35,861 bases of DNA from Thermoplasmatota archaeon (GTDB lineage Archaea > Thermoplasmatota > E2 > DHVEG-1), in NCBI GenBank assembly GCA_030619765.1, contig JAUXAU010000031.1, forward strand, positions 1 to 35,861. Direction: 5' to 3'. Below the pieces are notes generated by a model, which worked only from the letters and a program-made list of their open reading frames with translations, was not told the origin of the DNA and did no database searches. Of this stretch, positions 1 to 11,826 are shown one piece after another. The position numbers and the translations under genes were made by a program. Numbering within the stretch: the first letter of the stretch is position 1; every line of letters starts with the position of its first letter.

Positions 1-400
1 TATACACCAGACCCAGATTTCTATGGTACAGATAGTTTCACTTATACTGTGGATGATGACGACGGAGATACATCAAATGAGGCGACAGTGAATATTACTG
101 TTGGTCCAGTGAATGATCCTCCGGTTGCAGTGAATGATACTGCGAGTACGGATGAGGATATTGCAGTGTGGATTAATGTGACAGCTAACGATTATGATAT
201 TGATGGTACGTTAGATCTTTCATCGGTGACGGTGACTGATGGTGGTCCGTCTCATGGTGGTACGTTTGTTAACACAACGACTGGTGAGATTGAGTATACT
301 CCTGATCCTGATTACTTTGGCCCTGACAGCTTTACCTATGAGGTGGATGATGATGATGGTGCAACATCAAATGTCGCTACGGTCATCATAATTGTGGATG
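1..400 (+). repeat. Tandem coding repeat of the cadherin-like domain
   Basis: The stretch at about 1-105 is repeated at about 295-400 at recognisable DNA level: both encode YTPDPD-(Y/F)-(F/Y)-G-x-DSFTY-x-VDDDDG-x-TSN-x-AT. The period is about 294 bases, one domain. The array probably continues to the left of the window. Confidence 0.7.
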
Positions 401-1599
401 ATGTAAATGATCCTCCAAATACTCCAAGCAATCCTGAACCAGATGATGGTGCTACAGATATAGATGTCAATGCTGATCTTAGCTGGAACTGTAGCGATCT
501 GGATCCTGGTGACAATCTCACCTACGATGTTTACTTTGGAACTGCTTCATCTCCGCCAAAAGTCTCCAGTAATCAATCAAATACCACTTATGATCCTGGA
601 ACATTAGGTCTTGGAACCACCTACTACTGGATGATTATAGCATGGGATAACAATAGTGCATTTAATGAAAGTCCAGTATGGAGTTTTAAAACCACAAGTC
701 CGCCATCACCACCAGCAACAAAAGATCCAACTGCTGATGCTGATGGACCATACTATGGATTTGTAGATGAAGAAATCGAGTTCGATGGGACAAATAGTGA
801 AGATAACGATGAAAATGGTGAGTCTATTGTCCGGTATGATTGGAAGTTTTTCGATGAAGATACATGGCATGAGGATCTAGGGGCAAATCCAAACCACACC
901 TATGAAGTAAAAGGAGAATATACAATTACGCTAAGGGTAACCGATGACGAAGGAACTACAGATACTGATACAGCCACGGTTTATATTACCACACCAAACA
1001 ATCCGCCTACACAACCCACCTTGGATGGTCCAACATTTGGACATAAACAAACACCACTAGATTATGATGTAGTTTCAATAGATCTAGATAACGATACAAT
1101 CAGGTATGTTTTTGACTGGGGTGACGACACCAATACAACCACAGAATATTTTACAAATGGTACAACAGCTACACAAAACCATAGTTGGTCAACCTATGGT
1201 GAATACCTCATAACTATATATGCAGAGGATATAAACGACGCTATCTCAGCGATAACAACTTATACAATTTTAATAGATGTACATCTAATCGATGATAAAA
1301 TTAAAGGAGAACTAATAGATCTTGACAGTAACAATACTTGGGATGTATTTTATAATGATGCAACGGGGAATCAGACAGATCTTGGACAGGAAAACAGTAC
1401 TTATCTAATAGACGGTGATGGAGACGGCAAGTGGGATTATGTCTATAATCTAGAAACAGAATTATCAACGTATTATGATTATGTATATCAGAAATATCTG
1501 AATATATATGAAATGGAGAAGATACCTGGATTTGAGACAATATCTTTATTGGCAATGATAGCACTAGTATTGGTCATCCTGAGAAAAAAGAGAAGATAA
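1..1599 (+). CDS. Large surface protein, C-terminal part (cadherin-like/PKD domains, PGF-type anchor)
   Basis: The reading frame is open from base 1, so the gene starts outside the window and only about 532 C-terminal residues are seen. The first part has repeats of a cadherin-like/bacterial Ig domain (VNDPP linkers, YTPDPDYFGPDSFTYEVDDDDG-like cores). An FN3-like module (WSFKTTSPPSPP end) and two PKD-like modules follow, one with the VRYDWKFFDE and YTITLRVTDDEG signature. The tail IPGFETISLLAMIALVLVIL followed by RKKRR matches the layout of archaeal PGF-CTERM sorting signals: a PGF motif, a hydrophobic helix and a basic end. The protein is therefore probably exported, processed and lipid-anchored, as known for the archaeosortase system. 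It is rich in Asp and Asn-x-Thr/Ser, which suggests calcium binding and N-glycosylation. Ligand and role cannot be told. Confidence 0.85.
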   Translation, partial: YTPDPDFYGTDSFTYTVDDDDGDTSNEATVNITVGPVNDPPVAVNDTASTDEDIAVWINVTANDYDIDGTLDLSSVTVTDGGPSHGGTFVNTTTGEIEYTPDPDYFGPDSFTYEVDDDDGATSNVATVIIIVDDVNDPPNTPSNPEPDDGATDIDVNADLSWNCSDLDPGDNLTYDVYFGTASSPPKVSSNQSNTTYDPGTLGLGTTYYWMIIAWDNNSAFNESPVWSFKTTSPPSPPATKDPTADADGPYYGFVDEEIEFDGTNSEDNDENGESIVRYDWKFFDEDTWHEDLGANPNHTYEVKGEYTITLRVTDDEGTTDTDTATVYITTPNNPPTQPTLDGPTFGHKQTPLDYDVVSIDLDNDTIRYVFDWGDDTNTTTEYFTNGTTATQNHSWSTYGEYLITIYAEDINDAISAITTYTILIDVHLIDDKIKGELIDLDSNNTWDVFYNDATGNQTDLGQENSTYLIDGDGDGKWDYVYNLETELSTYYDYVYQKYLNIYEMEKIPGFETISLLAMIALVLVILRKKRR

Positions 1600-1621: not shown

Positions 1622-3574
1622 TTATTTGGTCTCCATCTCCCAGACGCCGTCCCAATCTTGAGAGGGCGGATTCTTTAAGAATTCCTGACAGCGGGCTATA
1701 AACACATGGGAGGCATTATCCTCCATGAGCTTAAGGGCTTCCTGGAAGGATTTGATAGCTGGTTTCCACTTCTTTTTAAAGTAGAGTTCAAGACCAGCCT
1801 CATAGAGCCTGACAAAATCGCGTTGCTTCTTGCTGAATCTGTCCTTTTGGGAGAGGAGTTCATAGATAAGGATTGGTTTCTTCTTCCCCATTACTTTGAC
1901 AGCATCAAGCTTCCTAGTCTCGAATTTATCTTGGACAACCTTATGGGTGTTTTCGGTTATTATTATATTAGTACCATAGAGCTTATTAAGGCCTTCCATA
2001 CGGGAGGCAAGGTTGACATTGTCACCAATTGCAGTGTAGTCAAATCTTTTTAAGGAGCCCATGTTGCCCACAATAGCATCACCACTGTTTAGACCTATTC
2101 CAATATCAAAAGATGGTATGCCCTCTTTTTTCCACTTATTCTGGAGCTCTTTGAGCTTATCCATCATCTCCAGACTGCTTGAGCATGCCAACTCAGTGTG
2201 ATTGGGCTGTTCAAGAGGTGCTCCCCAGAAGGCCATGATAGCGTCACCCATGTACTTGTCAACAAGCCCCTGGTCCTTTATTATTATCGAGGTCATCTCG
2301 GTTAGGTACTCGTTTAGGAGGCGGACAAGCTCCTCAGGGTCGAGTCTCTCTGATATAGAGGTGAATCCTCTTATGTCAGAGAAGAAAATGGTTATGTTCT
2401 TCTTCTCCCCTCCCAGGTTTATCCTATCAGGGTTCTTTATGAGGTTGTCTATCACCACAGGTGAAACATACTTTCCAAAGATCGAGGTTATCCACTTCCT
2501 GCTCTTCTCCTCTGTTAGATAGTATATCACAACGAGAGTGATGTAGACCAATGTTATGGAAAGTAGAGGGTAGAGCATATTCATGATGATTCCAGAATCA
2601 AATGTATAGATGGAAAAGAAGATGTAGACTATGGCAAGCACTGCCAAAAGGATAGTAGCTATATGTATCCTAAATCTGAAGAGTATAAAGCCTGCGAGCA
2701 GGGTAAACAGGAATATAACTCCTATAGCAGAGAAATCATCCTGATAATACAGGAAGTCCCTCGTGAGTATGGACTGTACAAGATTGGCATTGACCTCAAC
2801 ACCAGGCATAGCTTGGTTGGATATAGGAGTTATGACATCGTCATGGAGATCTGCTGCAGTGGCACCGATGAGAACTATCTTATCCTTGAAGTAGGAAGGG
2901 TCTGTATTATTGTTGTAGACATCAGAAAATGATATGTATTCGTAACCCCCTGGAGGAGCAAAGAAGTTTATCAGCATTCTGGAGCTTCCCAAGTCGGGAG
3001 TGATTCCAAGGTATTCACCAACAACAACCATAGAAATGTGGTCGTAGTCTTCGATGCCGGATATGTAAGGGCTAAAGGATCTTGTCACACCATCTGAGTC
3101 TGTGTAAAGGTTGACAAAGCCTGTCTCGAAATCCACACCTAGGGTGCCCAGGGTAGTGGTTGGTTTGAGCAGGCTCTCCCCATACAGTTCACCATTTTTG
3201 TGGGAAAAGGATGTGTACTCCATGGCCAAGACAACGTTGCCTGTCTTGAGAGAATCGGCTAGCTCAGAATCTCCTTCGGCAGGCTCAAAAAAGGAAATAT
3301 CTATCCCGATTACTGAGCTCTGGTTTAGGTACTCTATAACCCTAGCAAAGTGGTCCCTGGGCCAGGGCCACCTACCAAGTTCCCGGAGGCTCTCGTCATC
3401 TATGGCTACTATCACTATCTCATCAAGTGTATTACCAGGAGCATAAAAGGCATCCGAGATCTTGGATTCCCATGTATCTAAGAAGCCTGCAGTCATAAGC
3501 ATGGTGACTATGGCTGAGATAAATAGTGAGATAAGTAGTGTCTTTGTGAGTTTGTTTTTAAGTATACCGGGCAT
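1622..3574 (-). CDS. CHASE2-domain class III adenylate/guanylate cyclase
   Basis: A 650-residue membrane receptor cyclase that would make cAMP (or cGMP) from ATP (or GTP). The N-terminal helix (residues 12-30) leads into an extracellular CHASE2 sensor (about 31-275, with IDDESLRELGRWPWPRDHFA and the late IVLIGATAADLHDD). Three membrane helices follow (about 283-352), then the cyclase domain (about 390-570). Catalytic residues appear intact: metal-binding Asp400 (FFSDIRGFT) and Asp444 (DKYMGDAIMAFWGAP), base-contacting Lys440, and Asn521/Arg525 (NLASR). The C-terminal 75 residues are TPR-like and end in NPPSQDWDGVW, a tail I know from bacterial CHASE2 cyclases. It lies 14 bases after the FecR-domain gene, so the two are probably one operon. 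CHASE2 cyclases are mainly bacterial; transfer into this archaeon is my inference. Nucleotide specificity cannot be settled by eye. Confidence 0.93.
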   Translation of the reverse strand: MPGILKNKLTKTLLISLFISAIVTMLMTAGFLDTWESKISDAFYAPGNTLDEIVIVAIDDESLRELGRWPWPRDHFARVIEYLNQSSVIGIDISFFEPAEGDSELADSLKTGNVVLAMEYTSFSHKNGELYGESLLKPTTTLGTLGVDFETGFVNLYTDSDGVTRSFSPYISGIEDYDHISMVVVGEYLGITPDLGSSRMLINFFAPPGGYEYISFSDVYNNNTDPSYFKDKIVLIGATAADLHDDVITPISNQAMPGVEVNANLVQSILTRDFLYYQDDFSAIGVIFLFTLLAGFILFRFRIHIATILLAVLAIVYIFFSIYTFDSGIIMNMLYPLLSITLVYITLVVIYYLTEEKSRKWITSIFGKYVSPVVIDNLIKNPDRINLGGEKKNITIFFSDIRGFTSISERLDPEELVRLLNEYLTEMTSIIIKDQGLVDKYMGDAIMAFWGAPLEQPNHTELACSSSLEMMDKLKELQNKWKKEGIPSFDIGIGLNSGDAIVGNMGSLKRFDYTAIGDNVNLASRMEGLNKLYGTNIIITENTHKVVQDKFETRKLDAVKVMGKKKPILIYELLSQKDRFSKKQRDFVRLYEAGLELYFKKKWKPAIKSFQEALKLMEDNASHVFIARCQEFLKNPPSQDWDGVWEMETK

Positions 3575-3588
3575 TATAAACCACTGGC

Positions 3589-4476
3589 TCAGGTCAATTC
3601 AAATAATTTTCTAGCCCACTCTGGTGAATCAGATGGTAGGTCGAAGTATCCCATGACGTAACCGTCTATGAGAGCCTCCAATTCTTGGTCAGTTAAGCCA
3701 TACTGCTCTTTTAATTCGGGTAAAAATGGTTCAATTCTTTTATACAGCTCTTCCTTCAGGCTCCCCTTGAATTCATCATCTTTTTGTTGATTCCCAAGTA
3801 TCCATTCGTCCTTTACATAGGGTTGGGGTTCAGGAGTTTCGTTAAGATTATCAGGATCGACTGATACAGATAAATTCTCAGGGACCTCAATCGAAGACAT
3901 AATCTGACCGTTTTCATAGGTTGTAACATTAACAGTCCCATTGCCTACACTTATAATTATATTGCCATCTGCAAGGATATATACATCAAAAGATGTCCCG
4001 CGAACACTTGCAACTGTTGTGGGGGTATGGACCTCGTAGTTGTCTATACCACTCATCTTGGAAATTGTGTTCCATGTCCTTCCATAATCCTGTTTTATCT
4101 CAACACTGGTTTCTTCCTCCTGTTGGATGAGTTCTTGGATTGTCACCTCTGTATTGCTGTCGAGCCTAATTATACTGCTCTCGAAAAGGATTATTGACGC
4201 AGATGTATTGTCTCCTGTCTTCACTGAATCAGACTGGTGGAGAAGCATGCTATTTTGGGCAGAGGTCCATGATCCTCCTGCGTGTTTTACCTGGACAGTG
4301 CCAGATTCAACAATAAGTTGGGCGTTGACCACATCAGTGGTTTGTGTGAACCACATAAATCCGATGATGCAAACAATAATTATTACGGGGATTATCAAGA
4401 GAAATATTTTTCTCATGGATTTTGATTTTGCCTTTTTATTAGACTTGATTTCTTTATTGTCAATTTTTTTTGCCAA
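3589..4476 (-). CDS. FecR-domain membrane protein, partner of the CHASE2 cyclase
   Basis: About 295 residues: a Lys-rich cytoplasmic N-terminus, one membrane helix (IFLLIIPVIIIVCIIGFMWF), then an external FecR domain (VNAQLIVESGTVQV, SVKTGDNTSASIIL, RLDSNTEVTIQE, YEVHTPTTVASVRGTSFDVY). The C-terminal part is charged and helical. FecR domains are perceived as periplasmic or external scaffolds in signalling; in bacteria, FecR-domain proteins are often encoded beside CHASE2 cyclases. I chose the TTG at 4474-4476 because a strong Shine-Dalgarno GGAGGGG (4482-4488) precedes it, with GGAG eight bases before the codon. A TTG at 4492-4494 would extend it by six residues but lies upstream of that site. 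A TATA-like sequence lies at 4501-4513. It is upstream of, and probably co-transcribed with, the cyclase. Confidence 0.85.
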   Translation of the reverse strand: MAKKIDNKEIKSNKKAKSKSMRKIFLLIIPVIIIVCIIGFMWFTQTTDVVNAQLIVESGTVQVKHAGGSWTSAQNSMLLHQSDSVKTGDNTSASIILFESSIIRLDSNTEVTIQELIQQEEETSVEIKQDYGRTWNTISKMSGIDNYEVHTPTTVASVRGTSFDVYILADGNIIISVGNGTVNVTTYENGQIMSSIEVPENLSVSVDPDNLNETPEPQPYVKDEWILGNQQKDDEFKGSLKEELYKRIEPFLPELKEQYGLTDQELEALIDGYVMGYFDLPSDSPEWARKLFELT

Positions 4477-4694
4477 AATATCCCCTCCATACAATTATAT
4501 TTTTATATAAAAAGATTTGGGGAGGAATTATTAGCTCTTTCTTTGTATGTCTTGATCCAGTTCCAGGATGATAATAAGATTGACTAGTCTAGATAGATTT
4601 TCTTCTGATGTTACTTCTTCTGAGAGTACGCATTACCAGAGGTCTGATTACGTATGTGTTTTCACCATGGGTAGCTGCATTCTTCCATCACAAT

Positions 4695-4713
4695 ACCACC
4701 TCTCCGAGGTGGT
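4695..4713. repeat. Perfect 8-bp inverted repeat (hairpin)
   Basis: ACCACCTC (4695-4702), a three-base loop, then GAGGTGGT (4706-4713). The stem is GC-rich in an AT-rich spacer. No T-run follows on either strand, so it does not look like a simple terminator. Operator or transcript end structure are both possible. Confidence 0.4.
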
Positions 4714-4756
4714 GAATGAGAGCCACACAAAAAGAATTTCTACACGCCTCTAATTA

Positions 4757-4773
4757 GGAAATATTTTTAAATG
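4757..4773 (+). promoter_or_regulatory. Archaeal BRE/TATA promoter of the 96-aa gene
   Basis: The sequence GAAATATTTTTAAATG, centred about 32 bases before the ATG at 4798, fits a BRE plus TATA box. No Shine-Dalgarno precedes the ATG, so the transcript is probably leaderless or nearly so. Confidence 0.5.
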
Positions 4774-4797
4774 TAAAAAAGATGCAAACACGATAAA

Positions 4798-5088
4798 ATG
4801 TACGCAATAGTCTATTTTAATTTTAGTGGTAGCAAAGAAGAGTTTGAGGAAGCAAAAAAAACTATGATGCAAGCATCAAAAAAAGTTGATAATGTGGAGC
4901 TGATGGATATATTAAAACCATCAAGTGAATGGAACTATGCTGCTCTCTTGAAATTTAAGGAGTTTAAATCATTTCTTAAATTTACCAAAAAGATTAGAGA
5001 AGAACCAATCACTTTTTTTTCAAAAAGAGGACTTGAAGCTCCACCAAGGAAACTTGAATTGCTTGTGGATTTAGAGTATCTAGAATAA
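4798..5088 (+). CDS. Hypothetical 96-aa protein
   Basis: Not recognised. A small soluble protein with alternating strand/helix character (MYAIVYFNFSG, a charged helix, VELMDILKPSSEWNYAALLKF, helix, KLELLVDLEYL). This layout would suit a ferredoxin-like or dimeric alpha-beta-barrel fold; that is a guess from pattern only. The TATA box at the right distance and the AT-rich codon use typical of the host support a real gene. It stands alone, 230 bases before the acetyltransferase/cyclic-nucleotide-binding gene; whether it shares their function is unknown. Confidence 0.65.
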   Translation: MYAIVYFNFSGSKEEFEEAKKTMMQASKKVDNVELMDILKPSSEWNYAALLKFKEFKSFLKFTKKIREEPITFFSKRGLEAPPRKLELLVDLEYLE

Positions 5089-5248
5089 ATCTTTCTCTAT
5101 ACTTCTTTATTTACGCACGGAAACAGAGTCTTCAGTTTCACGTATTTAAAACATATAGACCTTGGTCCCTACATAATCAAATGTGGATTAAATGTTGATG
5201 TAACGTAAAGAAAATAGGGCTTTAAGAACATTTTTTCCATTAAAATAG

Positions 5249-5262
5249 AGAAAATTATAAAA
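5249..5262 (+). promoter_or_regulatory. Candidate TATA box of the GNAT/cNMP gene
   Basis: AAAATTATAAAAGAGG, about 65 bases upstream of the ATG at 5320, would start a transcript that includes the strong Shine-Dalgarno GGGAGGT at 5306-5312. A second TATA-like string at 5280-5288 lies too close to leave the Shine-Dalgarno in the message. Confidence 0.35.
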
Positions 5263-5319
5263 GAGGTAATTATTTTTGGATTATATACGCTTCTGGATAG
5301 TGGAAAGGGAGGTCACAGC

Positions 5320-6897
5320 ATGGAAATTACACAAGCTGACGAAAATGATGCGCAACAAATTATGAATCTTTTTGTAAAAATCTATGGTCTCGGTTATCCA
5401 TTCAAGAAATTTTACGATACCAAATGGCTTACTAAAAGTATCTATTCTGATGATAACTTATTTATGGTTGCTAAGGAGAAAAACCGGATAATTGGTACGG
5501 GTTCAGTTTATCTGACGGCGGGCGGATTCTCTGATTTGATAGGTGAGTTTGGACGTCTAGTAGTGGACCCAAAATACGGTCGAAAGGGTACCGGCACTGA
5601 AATCTTAACTAGTTTAATGGAATCAATCTCAGAAATGGTCCAATTTGGCTTTGCTGAGTGTAGGGTTGTTCACCCAGGGGCCCAAAAGATCTCTGAGCGG
5701 TGTGGATTTTTCCCAACAGGGTTTGAACCAAATAAGTATCAACTTGCGACAGCCCGGGAGAGCGTGGTTTTTGTCACCAAACTCTTCGAACCTGCTCTCT
5801 CTTTGAGAAGGAACAATCCTCGAGTTATTGCTAGTATCTACCCCATGGCAGCTAAAAGCATGCAAAATCTTGGCTTACCCGTGGATCTCATAGTTGAAGA
5901 CGAAATAGATGGTTATCCAACAGAGAAGTCTTTTAATACTAAGGAACTCCAATCCGCTGGGGTTTCACCTCTTCTCCGTATTGAACGAGGACGGATCAAG
6001 AATCCTGAGGTATTCGGCAATCTGAGTTTAAGTTATGGATTCTTTAAAATTGCCACGAATCAGGCACACTATTTGGTAGCCAAAGATAAGGGTGTAACCT
6101 TGGGCGCGATTGGCTTCACCGTGGACGATATTGATAAGAAGGTTAAGGTACTCGAACTTATTGAGTTCGACGATGAAGTGAAAGGGTTCTTGTTATCAAC
6201 ACTGGTCAAGTTGGCCCCGCAGAAATATAGGGCTCAGTATATTGAAATGGATGTAAGCGCATATTCTCCTCAAATGCAAAAGACCTTAGATAGGTTAGGA
6301 TTTGTTCCGGTGGCCTATTGCCCCTCAATGGTATTCCGGGGAGTGGAACGACTTGATGTGGTCCGAATGGCTAAGTTGCTTATACCTCCTGACGTGAGAG
6401 ACATAAAGCTTACCCCAATGGCCAAAGATATGTTTAAACTGGTAATGAAGGACTTGGAATGTAAGAAAATTGGTCTAGAAATCACCAAAATAACGCGACA
6501 ATCCGACATTTTCCAGGGTCTTTCCGATGGGGAGTTATCACAACTGGCTCAGATCTGTAAGATGGTCTCCTATCCTGCAGGTAAGACTATATGCAGTGAA
6601 GGTGAGTGTGGGAGCGAAATTTTTGTTCTTGCAGAGGGCAAAGCTTCAGTTTTCGCCAAGAGAACTGGAAAAAAAAGATCTAAAATCGGCACAATTGGTC
6701 AGGGAGAGATTTTTGGCGAGATGTCAATCATTGAGGATTTGCCTAGAGTCGCTGATTTAGTAACAGATGTAGATTCTAAGCTCGTTGTGATAGATCGGTT
6801 TGAACTAGAAAATCTGATGAACAAAAATAGTCATCTTGGCAAGGTAGTGATGCAGAACATGGCAAAGGGACTCTCTAGAAAACTGCGCCGCAGCTAA
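5320..6897 (+). CDS. Double-GNAT acetyltransferase with C-terminal cyclic-nucleotide-binding domain
   Basis: 525 residues. Residues 1-145 are a GNAT acetyltransferase domain with the acetyl-CoA loop in VVDPKYGRKGTGTEILTSLM (81-100). Residues about 225-345 look like a second, degenerate GNAT half (YLVAKDKGVTLGAIGFTVDD, later LDRLGFVPVAYCPSMVF) without a clear acetyl-CoA loop. Residues about 396-515 are a cNMP-binding domain: the phosphate-binding cassette reads GEIFGEMSIIEDLPRVADL, keeping the Glu (467) and Arg (476) that hold ribose and cyclic phosphate. The protein is therefore probably an acetyltransferase switched by cAMP or cGMP. In mycobacterial Pat, a known cAMP-controlled lysine acetyltransferase, the order is reversed (cNMP first). 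GGAG sits eight bases before the ATG. The nearby cyclase could supply the ligand. The acetylation target is unknown. Confidence 0.9.
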   Translation: MEITQADENDAQQIMNLFVKIYGLGYPFKKFYDTKWLTKSIYSDDNLFMVAKEKNRIIGTGSVYLTAGGFSDLIGEFGRLVVDPKYGRKGTGTEILTSLMESISEMVQFGFAECRVVHPGAQKISERCGFFPTGFEPNKYQLATARESVVFVTKLFEPALSLRRNNPRVIASIYPMAAKSMQNLGLPVDLIVEDEIDGYPTEKSFNTKELQSAGVSPLLRIERGRIKNPEVFGNLSLSYGFFKIATNQAHYLVAKDKGVTLGAIGFTVDDIDKKVKVLELIEFDDEVKGFLLSTLVKLAPQKYRAQYIEMDVSAYSPQMQKTLDRLGFVPVAYCPSMVFRGVERLDVVRMAKLLIPPDVRDIKLTPMAKDMFKLVMKDLECKKIGLEITKITRQSDIFQGLSDGELSQLAQICKMVSYPAGKTICSEGECGSEIFVLAEGKASVFAKRTGKKRSKIGTIGQGEIFGEMSIIEDLPRVADLVTDVDSKLVVIDRFELENLMNKNSHLGKVVMQNMAKGLSRKLRRS

Positions 6898-7007
6898 GCC
6901 CCAATAACGGATTTATTACTAACACCAGAAAGTCAAAAAGCAGGAGTTATAAGCATAAAGGTTTTTAAGAAAACTGTGTTGCCATACAATGTATTGGAGT
7001 TGATTAA

Positions 7008-7781
7008 CTGATAGTAAAGTTTTTAGGTGCACATAACGCGGAATCAAGAGACACAAGGCTGATCTCCATTATAATTGATGAAGTCTTAGCTGTGGATGCA
7101 GGGAGCCTCGCTTCGGAACTTTCTTTTTCAGAGCAAGAAAAGATAAAGGCAATCTTGCTATCTCATGGACATTACGATCATATTAGAGGGGTTCCGGCTT
7201 TTGCCTTCAATAATCCCGATCAAACTACTGAGATTTTTGCCACACCCCAGACGCTTAAAATCCTTTCCTCTCATCTTATAGATGGTGTAATTTATCCCAA
7301 ATTCACAAAAAAGATTCCCTTTTTCTTAGAAAAACCATCACTCAAGTTTGTGGCTTTAGAACCCTTTGTTCCAGTAGATATTGAAGGTTATCAGGTTTTA
7401 CCTCTACCGGTAAGGCATACTATTAACGCGGTAGGCTTTGAACTCACTTCCAAAGATGGAAAGAAGGTTTTCTACTCTGGTGATACCGGTCCAGGTCTTT
7501 CAGCTCTTTGGGAACACATATCACCTCAGCTTATTATCGTGGAAGTAACGTTTCCCAATAGATTAGAAAATAGAGCAATTAATTCAGCACACCTATGTCC
7601 TAAAATGTTAAAAAAGGAGTTGATAGATTTTCATCGAATCAAAGGATGTTATCCACAGGTCATCTTATTTCATTTAAGCCCGAAACTTGAAGAAGAAATC
7701 AAGAAAGAAGTAAAGGAAGTATCTAAGGAATTAAAACTTAATATCGGTATTGCCTGCGAGGGTGAGAAGATTATTGTTTAG
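7008..7781 (+). CDS. Metallo-beta-lactamase-fold hydrolase, possible class II cyclic-nucleotide phosphodiesterase
   Basis: About 257 residues with the MBL metal site: HGHYDH (LLSHGHYDHIRGVPAFAF), a later PVRHT and the Asp in FYSGDTGPG. The stretch after the first motif (a short strand, then TLKILSSHLIDGVIYPKF) resembles class II 3',5'-cyclic-nucleotide phosphodiesterases such as yeast Pde1, in which a similar TI..L..H.FN..IWP segment follows HxHLDH. With a cyclase and a cNMP-binding enzyme nearby, cAMP hydrolysis is an attractive role, but an RNase Z-like or other MBL activity is not excluded. The conserved frame begins with IVKFLGAHNAESRDT, upstream of the first GTG (7092). An in-frame TAA at 7005-7007 leaves only CTG (7008) or ATA (7011) as start. 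CTG lies eight bases after GGAG (6996-6999), so I chose it. Confidence 0.75.
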   Translation: MIVKFLGAHNAESRDTRLISIIIDEVLAVDAGSLASELSFSEQEKIKAILLSHGHYDHIRGVPAFAFNNPDQTTEIFATPQTLKILSSHLIDGVIYPKFTKKIPFFLEKPSLKFVALEPFVPVDIEGYQVLPLPVRHTINAVGFELTSKDGKKVFYSGDTGPGLSALWEHISPQLIIVEVTFPNRLENRAINSAHLCPKMLKKELIDFHRIKGCYPQVILFHLSPKLEEEIKKEVKEVSKELKLNIGIACEGEKIIV

Positions 7782-7792
7782 GGGGAGTATGT

Positions 7793-9250
7793 ATAGCTAA
7801 GAGAGAACCGTTACACAAATATGATCTGGTGGTTCTTGGCTCGGGCCCAGCAGGTGAGAAAGGCGCCGCACAGACTGCCTATTTTGGTAAGAATGTAGCT
7901 ATGGTGGAACGGGACCTCTATTTAGGCGGTGCTGCAGCTGGCACTACGATCCCAAGCAAAACCCTGCGAGAAACGTCATTAACACTCTCAGGGATACGTG
8001 CACGTCGTCTCCACGGCGTGGATCTTTCACTCAAACGTCGGGCCACGGCCCGGGACTTTCTCCATCATGAGCGCGTAGTGAAAAATGCTGAGCGTACCCG
8101 AGTCATGAATAACATGCTTCTCCATAACGTGGACGTCTTCAAGGGCATGGGTTCGTTTGTAGATAAGCGAACAATCAAGGTCGAGGCCCGCGGCAAAGCA
8201 CCTGAGTTCCTTAGGGGCGATATTATCTTGATTGCAACGGGTTCGAATCCACGCCGCCCCGACAACATCCCTAAAGACCCGTGTATCTACGACTCGGATT
8301 CTATCCTACAGATCAAAAGTCCAATGCCAAAGAATATGGTAGTTGTGGGTGGTGGTGTCATCGGCTGTGAATATGCCTGTACCTTCGCTGCATTGGGTGT
8401 AGATGTGTCCTTAGTTCACAACAAGGAGATTCTGCTACCTTTCCTAGATCGCGATATCTCATTTGCACTCGAGAACAGCATGTCAAAGATGGGAATTAAA
8501 CTGCTGAAACCTGAGAGCGTGGAATCTTGTACTGTGAAGGCTAACGGACTAGAAATTAAACTGAGCTCTGGGAAAGTTAGCAAGTACGAGACGGTAATGC
8601 TCGCGACGGGGCGAACTAGCAACACCGGGGAACTGAATCTCGGGGTCGCTGGGATCACACCTGGCAAATATGGCTTATTGGCGGTAGATCAAAACTACCA
8701 GGTTATACATCCAGAGACAAAAAAACCTGTGCCGGGCATCTATGCCGCCGGAGATGTCATTGGCAGGCCTGCCCTAGCCTCGACTTCCATGGAACAGGCT
8801 CGCTTCGCCATGATCAAAGCCTTTAACCTAGAACCCTACAAGGAGCACGTGGCACCTATTTTGCCACTTGGTATTTACACAATCCCCGAGTGCTCTATGG
8901 CGGGCAAAACCGAGGAAGAATGCCGGGAGGAAAAGATCGATTATGTGGTGGGCAAGGCTACCTACAACCAGAATGCCCGAGGCATGATCATCGGTGACTG
9001 CGATGGTTTTTTGAAATTAATCTTTGAGTTCAATAACGACCTCAGTCGCCCCATGAAACTGCTGGGCATTCATGTCATTGGTGAGATCGCCTCCGAATTG
9101 ATCCACATTGGCGTCAGTGCCCTGATAATGAACGCAGGCAGCAATCTGTTTATTGACACCTGTTTTAACTATCCCACCCTCGGCGAACTCTACAAATATG
9201 CTACATATGACGCTATGGGCAACCGTTTGAAGCGCCTCGGATCAGAATAG
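7793..9250 (+). CDS. sthA: Soluble pyridine nucleotide transhydrogenase-like flavoprotein
   Basis: About 485 residues of the two-dinucleotide-binding-domain flavoprotein family. FAD site GSGPAGEKGA near the N-terminus; NAD(P) site VVVGGGVIGCEYACTFAALG; second FAD motif GIYAAGDVIGRPALAS. The redox Cys pair of lipoamide dehydrogenases is absent (LGGAAAGTTIPSKTLRE). Stretches IYDSDSIL, VIGCEYA and GIYTIPE match what I recall of E. coli SthA, which exchanges hydride between NADPH and NAD+. Start: the Rossmann strand needs residues before the GTG at 7829. The frame back to a TGA at 7763 has no ATG, GTG or TTG; ATA at 7793 gives IAKREPLHKYDLVVLGSGPAG and lies five bases after GGGGGAG (7781-7787). 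It is 11 bases after the MBL gene, hence likely co-transcribed. The gene is visibly richer in G+C than its neighbours, suggesting transfer. Confidence 0.85.
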   Translation: MAKREPLHKYDLVVLGSGPAGEKGAAQTAYFGKNVAMVERDLYLGGAAAGTTIPSKTLRETSLTLSGIRARRLHGVDLSLKRRATARDFLHHERVVKNAERTRVMNNMLLHNVDVFKGMGSFVDKRTIKVEARGKAPEFLRGDIILIATGSNPRRPDNIPKDPCIYDSDSILQIKSPMPKNMVVVGGGVIGCEYACTFAALGVDVSLVHNKEILLPFLDRDISFALENSMSKMGIKLLKPESVESCTVKANGLEIKLSSGKVSKYETVMLATGRTSNTGELNLGVAGITPGKYGLLAVDQNYQVIHPETKKPVPGIYAAGDVIGRPALASTSMEQARFAMIKAFNLEPYKEHVAPILPLGIYTIPECSMAGKTEEECREEKIDYVVGKATYNQNARGMIIGDCDGFLKLIFEFNNDLSRPMKLLGIHVIGEIASELIHIGVSALIMNAGSNLFIDTCFNYPTLGELYKYATYDAMGNRLKRLGSE

Positions 9251-11061: not shown

Positions 11062-11826
11062 TTATTTTATCTCTTTATTGATAATATTAAGAAATCTTTT
11101 GTTGGAAATATAATGGTCTATGAGGAGTTTTCCATTATATACTAAGTTAAATGTAGAGTATATTGAGGGAGCGTTTTGTGCTTGCTTTGCGCTTTTTAAT
11201 TCAGTTACTTTTAGTTTCACCCCTTTTTTCTTTGCGATCTCGTCTAGATCTTTAATGGATCTGGCAACCCAAGGACATTGATTTGCATAGATAATATTCA
11301 GTCCTTTATATTTGCCAAGTTGCTTTTCCCAATCCTTTAATTTTGGCAAAGGGCCTTTTTTTAAGATTTTAATCATCAATTCAAATGAAGGTTTGACTTT
11401 AGCCACAGACTTGAATTCATTTTTTAAAAAAAGATCTTTGCCTGCCATGAATGGGCCTTCACTTGCAACCACAGCAACACCATATTTTCCTTCTTTCTTT
11501 GCGTCTTTAATGCATTCTTTAATTAAAAGTGAACCATACCCTTTTTGTTTGTACTTGTTTGGAGAAATCCAGAGACAATGAATAAACATATACCCCTTTG
11601 CATCAATAGCTCTCCACGTATACTCTCCTGGTATGTATTCGATAAAACCAATACATTTTTTCTCTTTTTCTGGATATAATTGTTTAATTTTCAGACCTTC
11701 GGAAAAACGCTTTTTTAACCAATCAAGCTTTATTTGATACCCTTCATTTTTTGGATTTAGAAAGCATTTAGGTGGATATTCAGAAATATTATTTTTGTCA
11801 ATGTTTATGATTACAATGTCTGGCAT
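11062..11826 (-). CDS. GNAT acetyltransferase with YoaP-like C-terminal domain
   Basis: 254 residues. The N-terminal half is a GNAT domain (IGFIEYIPGEYTWRAIDAKGYMFIHCLWISPN, acetyl-CoA loop KQKGYGSLLI at about 93-102). The C-terminal half (about 160-254) resembles the YoaP-like domain found behind GNAT domains in many anaerobes, with a Cys-Pro motif in ANQCPWVARS and a thioredoxin-like strand/helix order. Substrate unknown. The gene stands alone; TATTATAAC just upstream of the ATG on the minus strand is a candidate TATA box. Base composition is like the host's. Confidence 0.8.
   Translation of the reverse strand: MPDIVIINIDKNNISEYPPKCFLNPKNEGYQIKLDWLKKRFSEGLKIKQLYPEKEKKCIGFIEYIPGEYTWRAIDAKGYMFIHCLWISPNKYKQKGYGSLLIKECIKDAKKEGKYGVAVVASEGPFMAGKDLFLKNEFKSVAKVKPSFELMIKILKKGPLPKLKDWEKQLGKYKGLNIIYANQCPWVARSIKDLDEIAKKKGVKLKVTELKSAKQAQNAPSIYSTFNLVYNGKLLIDHYISNKRFLNIINKEIK

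Follow-up and report, generated by a model that had tools for sequence, protein, structure and literature searches.

Cyclic AMP (cAMP) was detected in archaea decades ago, and the proteins that make, receive and destroy it there are essentially unknown; very few archaeal class III cyclases have been predicted, and of the archaeal CYTH-family proteins annotated as 'class IV cyclases' the only one tested proved to be a triphosphatase (PMC8233210, PMC8646023). In the mycobacterial acetyltransferase Pat (Rv0998, MSMEG_5458), a 'type III GNAT', cAMP activates a GNAT domain in the same chain, and in the type V tandem GNATs (Eis) only the first module, which has a clear acetyl-CoA loop, is active (PMC8556138). 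Atypical class II phosphodiesterases are defined by the motif [T/S]HxHxDH in combination with PF12706, and Rv1339 acts on both 3',5'-cAMP and cyclic GMP (cGMP) (Thomson et al. 2022, PMC9293780). Here we describe a locus on a stretch of 35,861 nucleotides from a Thermoplasmatota archaeon (assembly GCA_030619765.1, contig JAUXAU010000031.1), called the window below, which is the entire contig 29 of a 3.17-Mb genome bin. We consider it likely, judging from its sequence, that this locus is a self-contained cAMP signalling cassette.

The locus holds a predicted synthase, effector and eraser. On one side lie the genes for a PKD protein, a CHASE2 receptor cyclase and a FecR-domain protein; on the other lie a 96-amino-acid open reading frame (ORF), a fusion of two GNAT modules with a cNMP-binding domain, an MBL-fold protein and a flavoprotein gene. 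The original prediction, made from the sequence of the window, had named the cyclase, the FecR protein, the GNAT-cNMP fusion and the MBL protein. Domain profile matches place all four at the coordinates and on the strands it gave, and the further features it had claimed are found as well: intact catalytic residues in the cyclase, an intact phosphate-binding Glu and Arg in the cNMP domain, and kinship of the MBL protein to class II cyclic-nucleotide phosphodiesterases. The neighbourhood of the four families is conserved in related genomes. Its list of members was incomplete, as it omitted the PKD protein, the 96-amino-acid ORF and the SthA-like flavoprotein, all of which travel with the set.

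The cyclase gene (1622-3574, minus strand, 650 amino acids) encodes a protein that matches CHASE2 (PF05226) with 175 bits (cut-off 26.3) and the class III domain Guanylate_cyc (PF00211) with 102 bits (cut-off 21.9). It shows the topology of a CHASE2 receptor, with one N-terminal helix, an extracellular CHASE2 domain (residues 21-294), three helices and the class III domain (391-567), the helices being predicted at 13-31, 281-299, 305-323 and 333-351. The catalytic site is complete: Asp400 and Asp444, the pair Lys440 and Thr514, Asn521 and Arg525 are all there. We take the two Asp to bind metal, Lys and Thr to read adenine, as in the corresponding pair of adenine-specific class IIIb enzymes, and Asn and Arg to serve the transition state. 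Solved adenylate cyclases of bacteria and cyanobacteria, e.g. 3r5g and 1wc0, align with a profile built from eleven relatives, and the enzyme is predicted to be a class IIIb adenylate cyclase that would make cAMP from ATP, which points to cAMP as the messenger of the locus. The FecR gene (3589-4494, minus strand) is the first gene of the cyclase operon, lies upstream of the cyclase gene with a gap of 14 bp and adjoins it in every relative with a readable flank; its product has one N-terminal membrane helix and a FecR domain at residues 89-188 (PF04773, 45 bits).

The effector candidate is a fusion protein of 525 amino acids (5320-6897, plus strand), composed of a GNAT module at residues 13-130 (PF00583, 41 bits), a second GNAT-like module at about 200-345 and a cNMP-binding domain at 396-524 (PF00027, 65 bits). 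The cNMP domain carries the motif FGEMSIIEDLPR, in which the phosphate-binding Glu467 and Arg476 stand nine residues apart; neither these two residues nor the motif around them varies among seven fusion proteins. The second GNAT-like module is weak (Acetyltransf_18, 17.2 bits against a cut-off of 22.7) and has no recognisable acetyl-CoA loop. When the GNAT part alone was compared with 80 genomes of the class, no close homologue without a cNMP domain was found, the search returning one weak match in G247 (27% identity over 142 residues). The intact pocket suggests that the fusion would bind a cyclic nucleotide; the direction of its effect and the acetyltransferase substrate are inferred from the sequence.

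The MBL-fold protein (7008-7781, plus strand) is probably the cyclic-nucleotide eraser. The original prediction had started this gene at GTG 7092, which we correct to CTG 7008: the site is CTG in the window and in G021 and ATG, GTG or TTG in the other nine relatives, and a conserved ribosome-binding-like GGAG/GAGG precedes it. CTG 7008 is thus a probable non-canonical start, and the protein is therefore 257 amino acids long. It matches PF12706 with 61.1 bits, above its score for PF02112 (PDEase_II), whose cut-off it passes narrowly (26.8 against 23.7 bits), and its motif SHGHYDH at residue 51 together with PF12706 gives it both features of the atypical class II enzymes. The class II signature HxHLDH is absent from the window protein (HGHYDH) and present in its relative in G059 (HSHLDH). 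The HxHxDH motif, His136, Asp158, His194 and His221 are kept in 12 of 12 sequences including that of G059, and we take them to be the ligand and proton-donor set of RNase Z-type phosphodiesterases. Compared with all solved chains, the family profile finds yeast 3',5'-cyclic-nucleotide phosphodiesterase 1 (PDE1) as its best match (E 5.6e-7), with a common block around His88-Leu89 and Pro96, followed by PhnP and YhfI. The protein lies near, not inside, the characterised subfamily, because motif and PF12706 fit and the equivalog cut-offs of NF041851 (400 bits) and of the RNase Z model TIGR02651 (292.95 bits) are both missed.

The effector is exchanged in sister genera, while synthase and eraser are kept. 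In G043 a single strand carries the PKD protein, FecR, the cyclase, an HD-domain protein, the MBL protein and a 753-amino-acid protein in which a decarboxylase domain dependent on pyridoxal phosphate (PLP) is joined to a cNMP domain. In G037, two contigs were joined through an exact overlap of 144 identical bases; decarboxylase-cNMP, MBL and HD genes then lie on one strand and FecR and cyclase on the other, with the PKD gene convergent, so that G037 has the divergent layout of the window with another effector in the operon. The decarboxylase-cNMP fusion is confined to three genomes of the order, all of which have the cyclase and the MBL protein, and the Glu and Arg of the cNMP domain are kept in all three; by sequence comparison, the GNAT and decarboxylase parts are unrelated. 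In G026, the HD gene is divergent from FecR and cyclase, at a contig end. The HD-domain protein of the decarboxylase cassette (HD_5, HDIGK...; L038 7850-9592, L042 5131-6699, L040 1-690) possibly acts as a further phosphodiesterase or as a sensor. A further observation concerns G047, the sole cassette genome without a detected enzyme fusion: it encodes a protein that resembles potassium channels and ends in a cNMP domain (L114 6360-7667), and the contig breaks off at its MBL gene.

Conservation was assessed in 52 genomes of the order, 45 of the family (f1) and 390 of the phylum. Within the order, the fusion is found in seven genomes and the cyclase and the MBL protein in ten each; in the phylum sample, 10 genomes have CHASE2, 11 have the MBL family, 19 have any class III cyclase and 29 have any cNMP domain. 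In the family, the MBL gene and cNMP domains of any kind occur in the identical ten genomes (P = 3e-10, hypergeometric), and nine of these ten also have the cyclase (hypergeometric P = 1e-7). The GNAT-cNMP gene, too, is confined to this set. True significance is weaker than these P values, because they ignore the relatedness of the genomes. The neighbourhood is conserved in six fusion-bearing genomes. The full order of the window is kept in G021, G040, G042 and the bin33 chromosome, and in G041 the stretch between cyclase and MBL has the same order, bounded on either side by an assembly gap, and there is no flavoprotein gene. The synthase, effector and likely eraser that the original prediction had placed side by side form a conserved set in an archaeon.

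A comparable arrangement is found outside the family. In G059, a soluble class III cyclase, an MBL homologue and a 986-amino-acid protein ending in a cNMP domain are encoded consecutively on one strand. This MBL protein is 34% identical to that of the window, and its top score is for PF02112 (64.3 bits, cut-off 23.7). Elsewhere the 986-amino-acid protein matches TPR-S weakly and nothing else. Separately, genomes of family f14 (G354, G232, G279, G055) encode up to eight class III cyclases each and several cNMP proteins, some of which lie within a few kilobases of each other.

These observations suggest the following mechanism. A signal at the cell surface would be perceived by CHASE2, probably in partnership with the FecR and PKD proteins outside the cell, and CHASE2 would switch on the intracellular class IIIb cyclase. 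The resulting cAMP would bind the tandem-GNAT protein at its C-terminal cNMP domain and alter its acetyltransferase activity, with activation likelier than inhibition by analogy to mycobacterial Pat, and the MBL phosphodiesterase, encoded in the same operon as the effector, would hydrolyse cAMP and reset the system. Because the same synthase and eraser adjoin the decarboxylase-cNMP protein, cAMP would control the enzyme directly and not through a transcription factor. We lean towards seeing here a complete and modular archaeal cAMP pathway, which retains synthase and eraser while metabolic or modifying enzymes take turns as fusion partner of the cNMP domain (an acetyltransferase in some genera, a PLP decarboxylase in others), and which would need neither a transcription factor nor a kinase. 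More speculatively, the process under control might be redox or acetyl-CoA metabolism, as the adjacent flavoprotein hints.

Several observations weigh against a cAMP cassette of this kind. The cyclase gene of G038 is distant from its effector-eraser operon, and no cyclase was detected in G020, in both cases with assembly gaps nearby. In G040 (L115 212-1678) a cNMP domain stands at the N-terminus of a D-2-hydroxyacid dehydrogenase with Ile in place of the pocket Glu, and this fusion probably does not bind cAMP; in the 986-amino-acid protein of G059 (L113 7136-10096), which has its cNMP domain at the C-terminus, the pocket Arg is missing. The AlphaFold models of the MBL protein and of the fusion are too poor to use (mean pLDDT 50 and 47), because the alignments are shallow. 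Finally, the window MBL protein scores similarly or better with RNase Z (51.3 bits) and PhnP (31.6 bits) than with the phosphodiesterase model NF041851 (28.3 bits). These last scores speak for a rival reading, in which the protein is not the eraser but a phosphodiesterase of the RNase Z or PhnP kind, with RNA ends or another cyclic phosphate as its substrate, in the metabolic pathway of the effector. We regard this as unlikely, since every RNase Z equivalog cut-off is far out of its reach, yeast PDE1 ranks ahead of PhnP and YhfI with the family profile, and PDEase_II is the top-scoring model for the relative in G059. Moreover, the MBL gene stays with the cyclase through the exchange of the effector and directly follows the cyclase gene in G047 and G059.

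The receiving end of the pathway could also be misread. Nucleotide binding is often lost in cNMP folds, and two further cNMP proteins of these genomes lack the Glu or the Arg, so that the domain of the fusion might be a structural or retuned relic with another ligand or none, the cyclase signalling to an unrelated receptor. The invariance of Glu467, Arg476 and their motif in the seven fusions makes this quite unlikely, as do the same pocket residues in the unrelated decarboxylase fusions beside the same cyclase and the confinement of cNMP domains in family f1 to genomes with the MBL gene. That the messenger is cGMP or another 3',5'-cyclic nucleotide deserves little credence: the choice of base rests on two residues and class III enzymes are sometimes promiscuous, but Lys440 and Thr514 agree with the solved adenylate cyclases. 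In cGMP sites a Thr or Ser typically follows the pocket Arg, whereas the fusion has Val. It seems more improbable still that the genes owe their proximity merely to the shared ancestry of a few closely related genomes, with no joint pathway. Nearly all genomes that share them do come from a single family, some of them standing near G021 (91-94% identity); however, the effector has been exchanged while synthase and eraser remain, linkage persists through changes between operon and divergent layout, the set has been lost or gained jointly across the 45 genomes, and it recurs with different flanks in the distant G059.

The remaining features of the locus accompany this probable cAMP cassette. The PKD/cadherin-like surface protein (49-1599, plus strand; Pfam PKD_4 and Big_9) has a single C-terminal membrane helix (492-510) and a sorting-type tail, and matches NCBIfam Loki-CTERM (24 bits, cut-off 19.9). 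Its gene adjoins the cyclase gene in the window, G021, G026, G037, G040, G042, G043, G047 and bin33, convergent with it in most relatives; in G043 and G047 the two share a strand, with the PKD gene upstream. Between the two operons (4495-4797), a five-genome alignment reveals conserved TATA-like boxes on both sides, of the CTTTTTATATAAAAAT type towards FecR and GAAATATTTTTA towards the 96-amino-acid ORF, which we infer to be the promoters of the two operons in a divergent promoter region. The ORF (4798-5088, plus strand) belongs to no family and lies directly upstream of the fusion gene; it is present in 6 of 52 genomes, each with the fusion and in conserved order. The last gene of the operon (about 7790-9250, plus strand) encodes the soluble transhydrogenase-like flavoprotein, a member of the SthA/lipoamide-dehydrogenase family without the redox Cys pair that scores just below the PRK05249 cut-off of NCBIfam (455.7 against 465 bits); it too occurs in 6 of 52 genomes, each with the fusion. 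Its listed ORF starts at 7829, the conserved reading extends farther upstream with no clear start codon, and the gene has a G+C content of 50% against 35% elsewhere on the contig. The contig encodes one more GNAT protein at 11062-11826, whose C-terminal domain is YoaP-like; its gene also follows the flavoprotein gene in G042.

We considered contamination and rejected it. In the genome collection, the named assemblies nearest to the window's genome bear the titles 'Thermoplasmatales archaeon' and 'Thermoplasmata archaeon', and the flanks of the block hold SecY-like, ribosomal-protein, adenylate-kinase and pseudouridine-synthase-like genes in G020 and a topoisomerase VI-like gene in G041, all named by sequence reading and not by family search. 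As to origin, the original prediction had suggested that the whole set was acquired from bacteria as a block and then split onto two strands. The former is not supported: the FecR-CHASE2 pair is of bacterial type, but the relatives found for the fusion, in a scan sensitive to close relatives only, are archaeal. FecR lies beside a CHASE2 cyclase in all three annotated bacterial plasmid neighbourhoods inspected, at about 30% identity across more than 80% of the protein. For the fusion, no full-length relative was found on plasmids, where matches are confined to the cNMP domain, and among 84,980 prokaryote species that scan found only archaeal relatives. The receptor pair may therefore be of bacterial ancestry. 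A one-strand version of the cassette does exist in G043, and nothing marks the one-strand form as ancestral; in the trees of MBL and cyclase, support is too weak to separate species history from gene history for the type of cassette.

Each domain family of the locus is already known; the novelty lies in their combination, in its occurrence in archaea and in the swapping of effector enzymes. We found no paper on an archaeal class III cyclase with cNMP proteins, nor on decarboxylase-cNMP fusions, in a literature search that covered few subscription journals. With three candidate proteins side by side, archaeal cAMP signalling becomes directly assayable, and the effector swap predicts direct control of enzymes by cAMP. 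The archaeal fusion resembles Pat in combining cNMP and GNAT domains in one chain. It differs in their order, since in Pat the cNMP domain comes first and the GNAT domain last, which sets the fusion outside type III, as well as in its second GNAT-like module and its adjacent cyclase and eraser genes; similarity is limited to the general folds (ActPatMycb56, 25.2 bits against a cut-off of 460). If our reading is right, cAMP-controlled acetylation would have arisen separately outside the actinobacteria. With Eis the fusion may share an arrangement of two GNAT modules of which only the first has a clear acetyl-CoA loop, and its weakly matched second module would fit the Eis pattern of a single active module; its C-terminal part, however, is a cNMP domain and not the Eis C-terminal region. 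The MBL protein shares with Rv1339, C. glutamicum CpdA, YhfI and yeast PDE1 the MBL fold, PF12706/PF02112, the [T/S]HxHxDH motif and RNase Z-like ligands, and it differs from the class II and atypical class II enzymes in its HGHYDH as against the class II HxHLDH, in its archaeal host and in sharing an operon with the effector. The FecR-CHASE2 pairs on plasmids of Shinella, Ensifer and Methylocystis likewise join FecR to a class III cyclase of the CHASE2 type, but their neighbours are export or other genes, whereas in the archaeal locus the pair stands next to a cNMP-fused enzyme and a probable cyclic-nucleotide phosphodiesterase.

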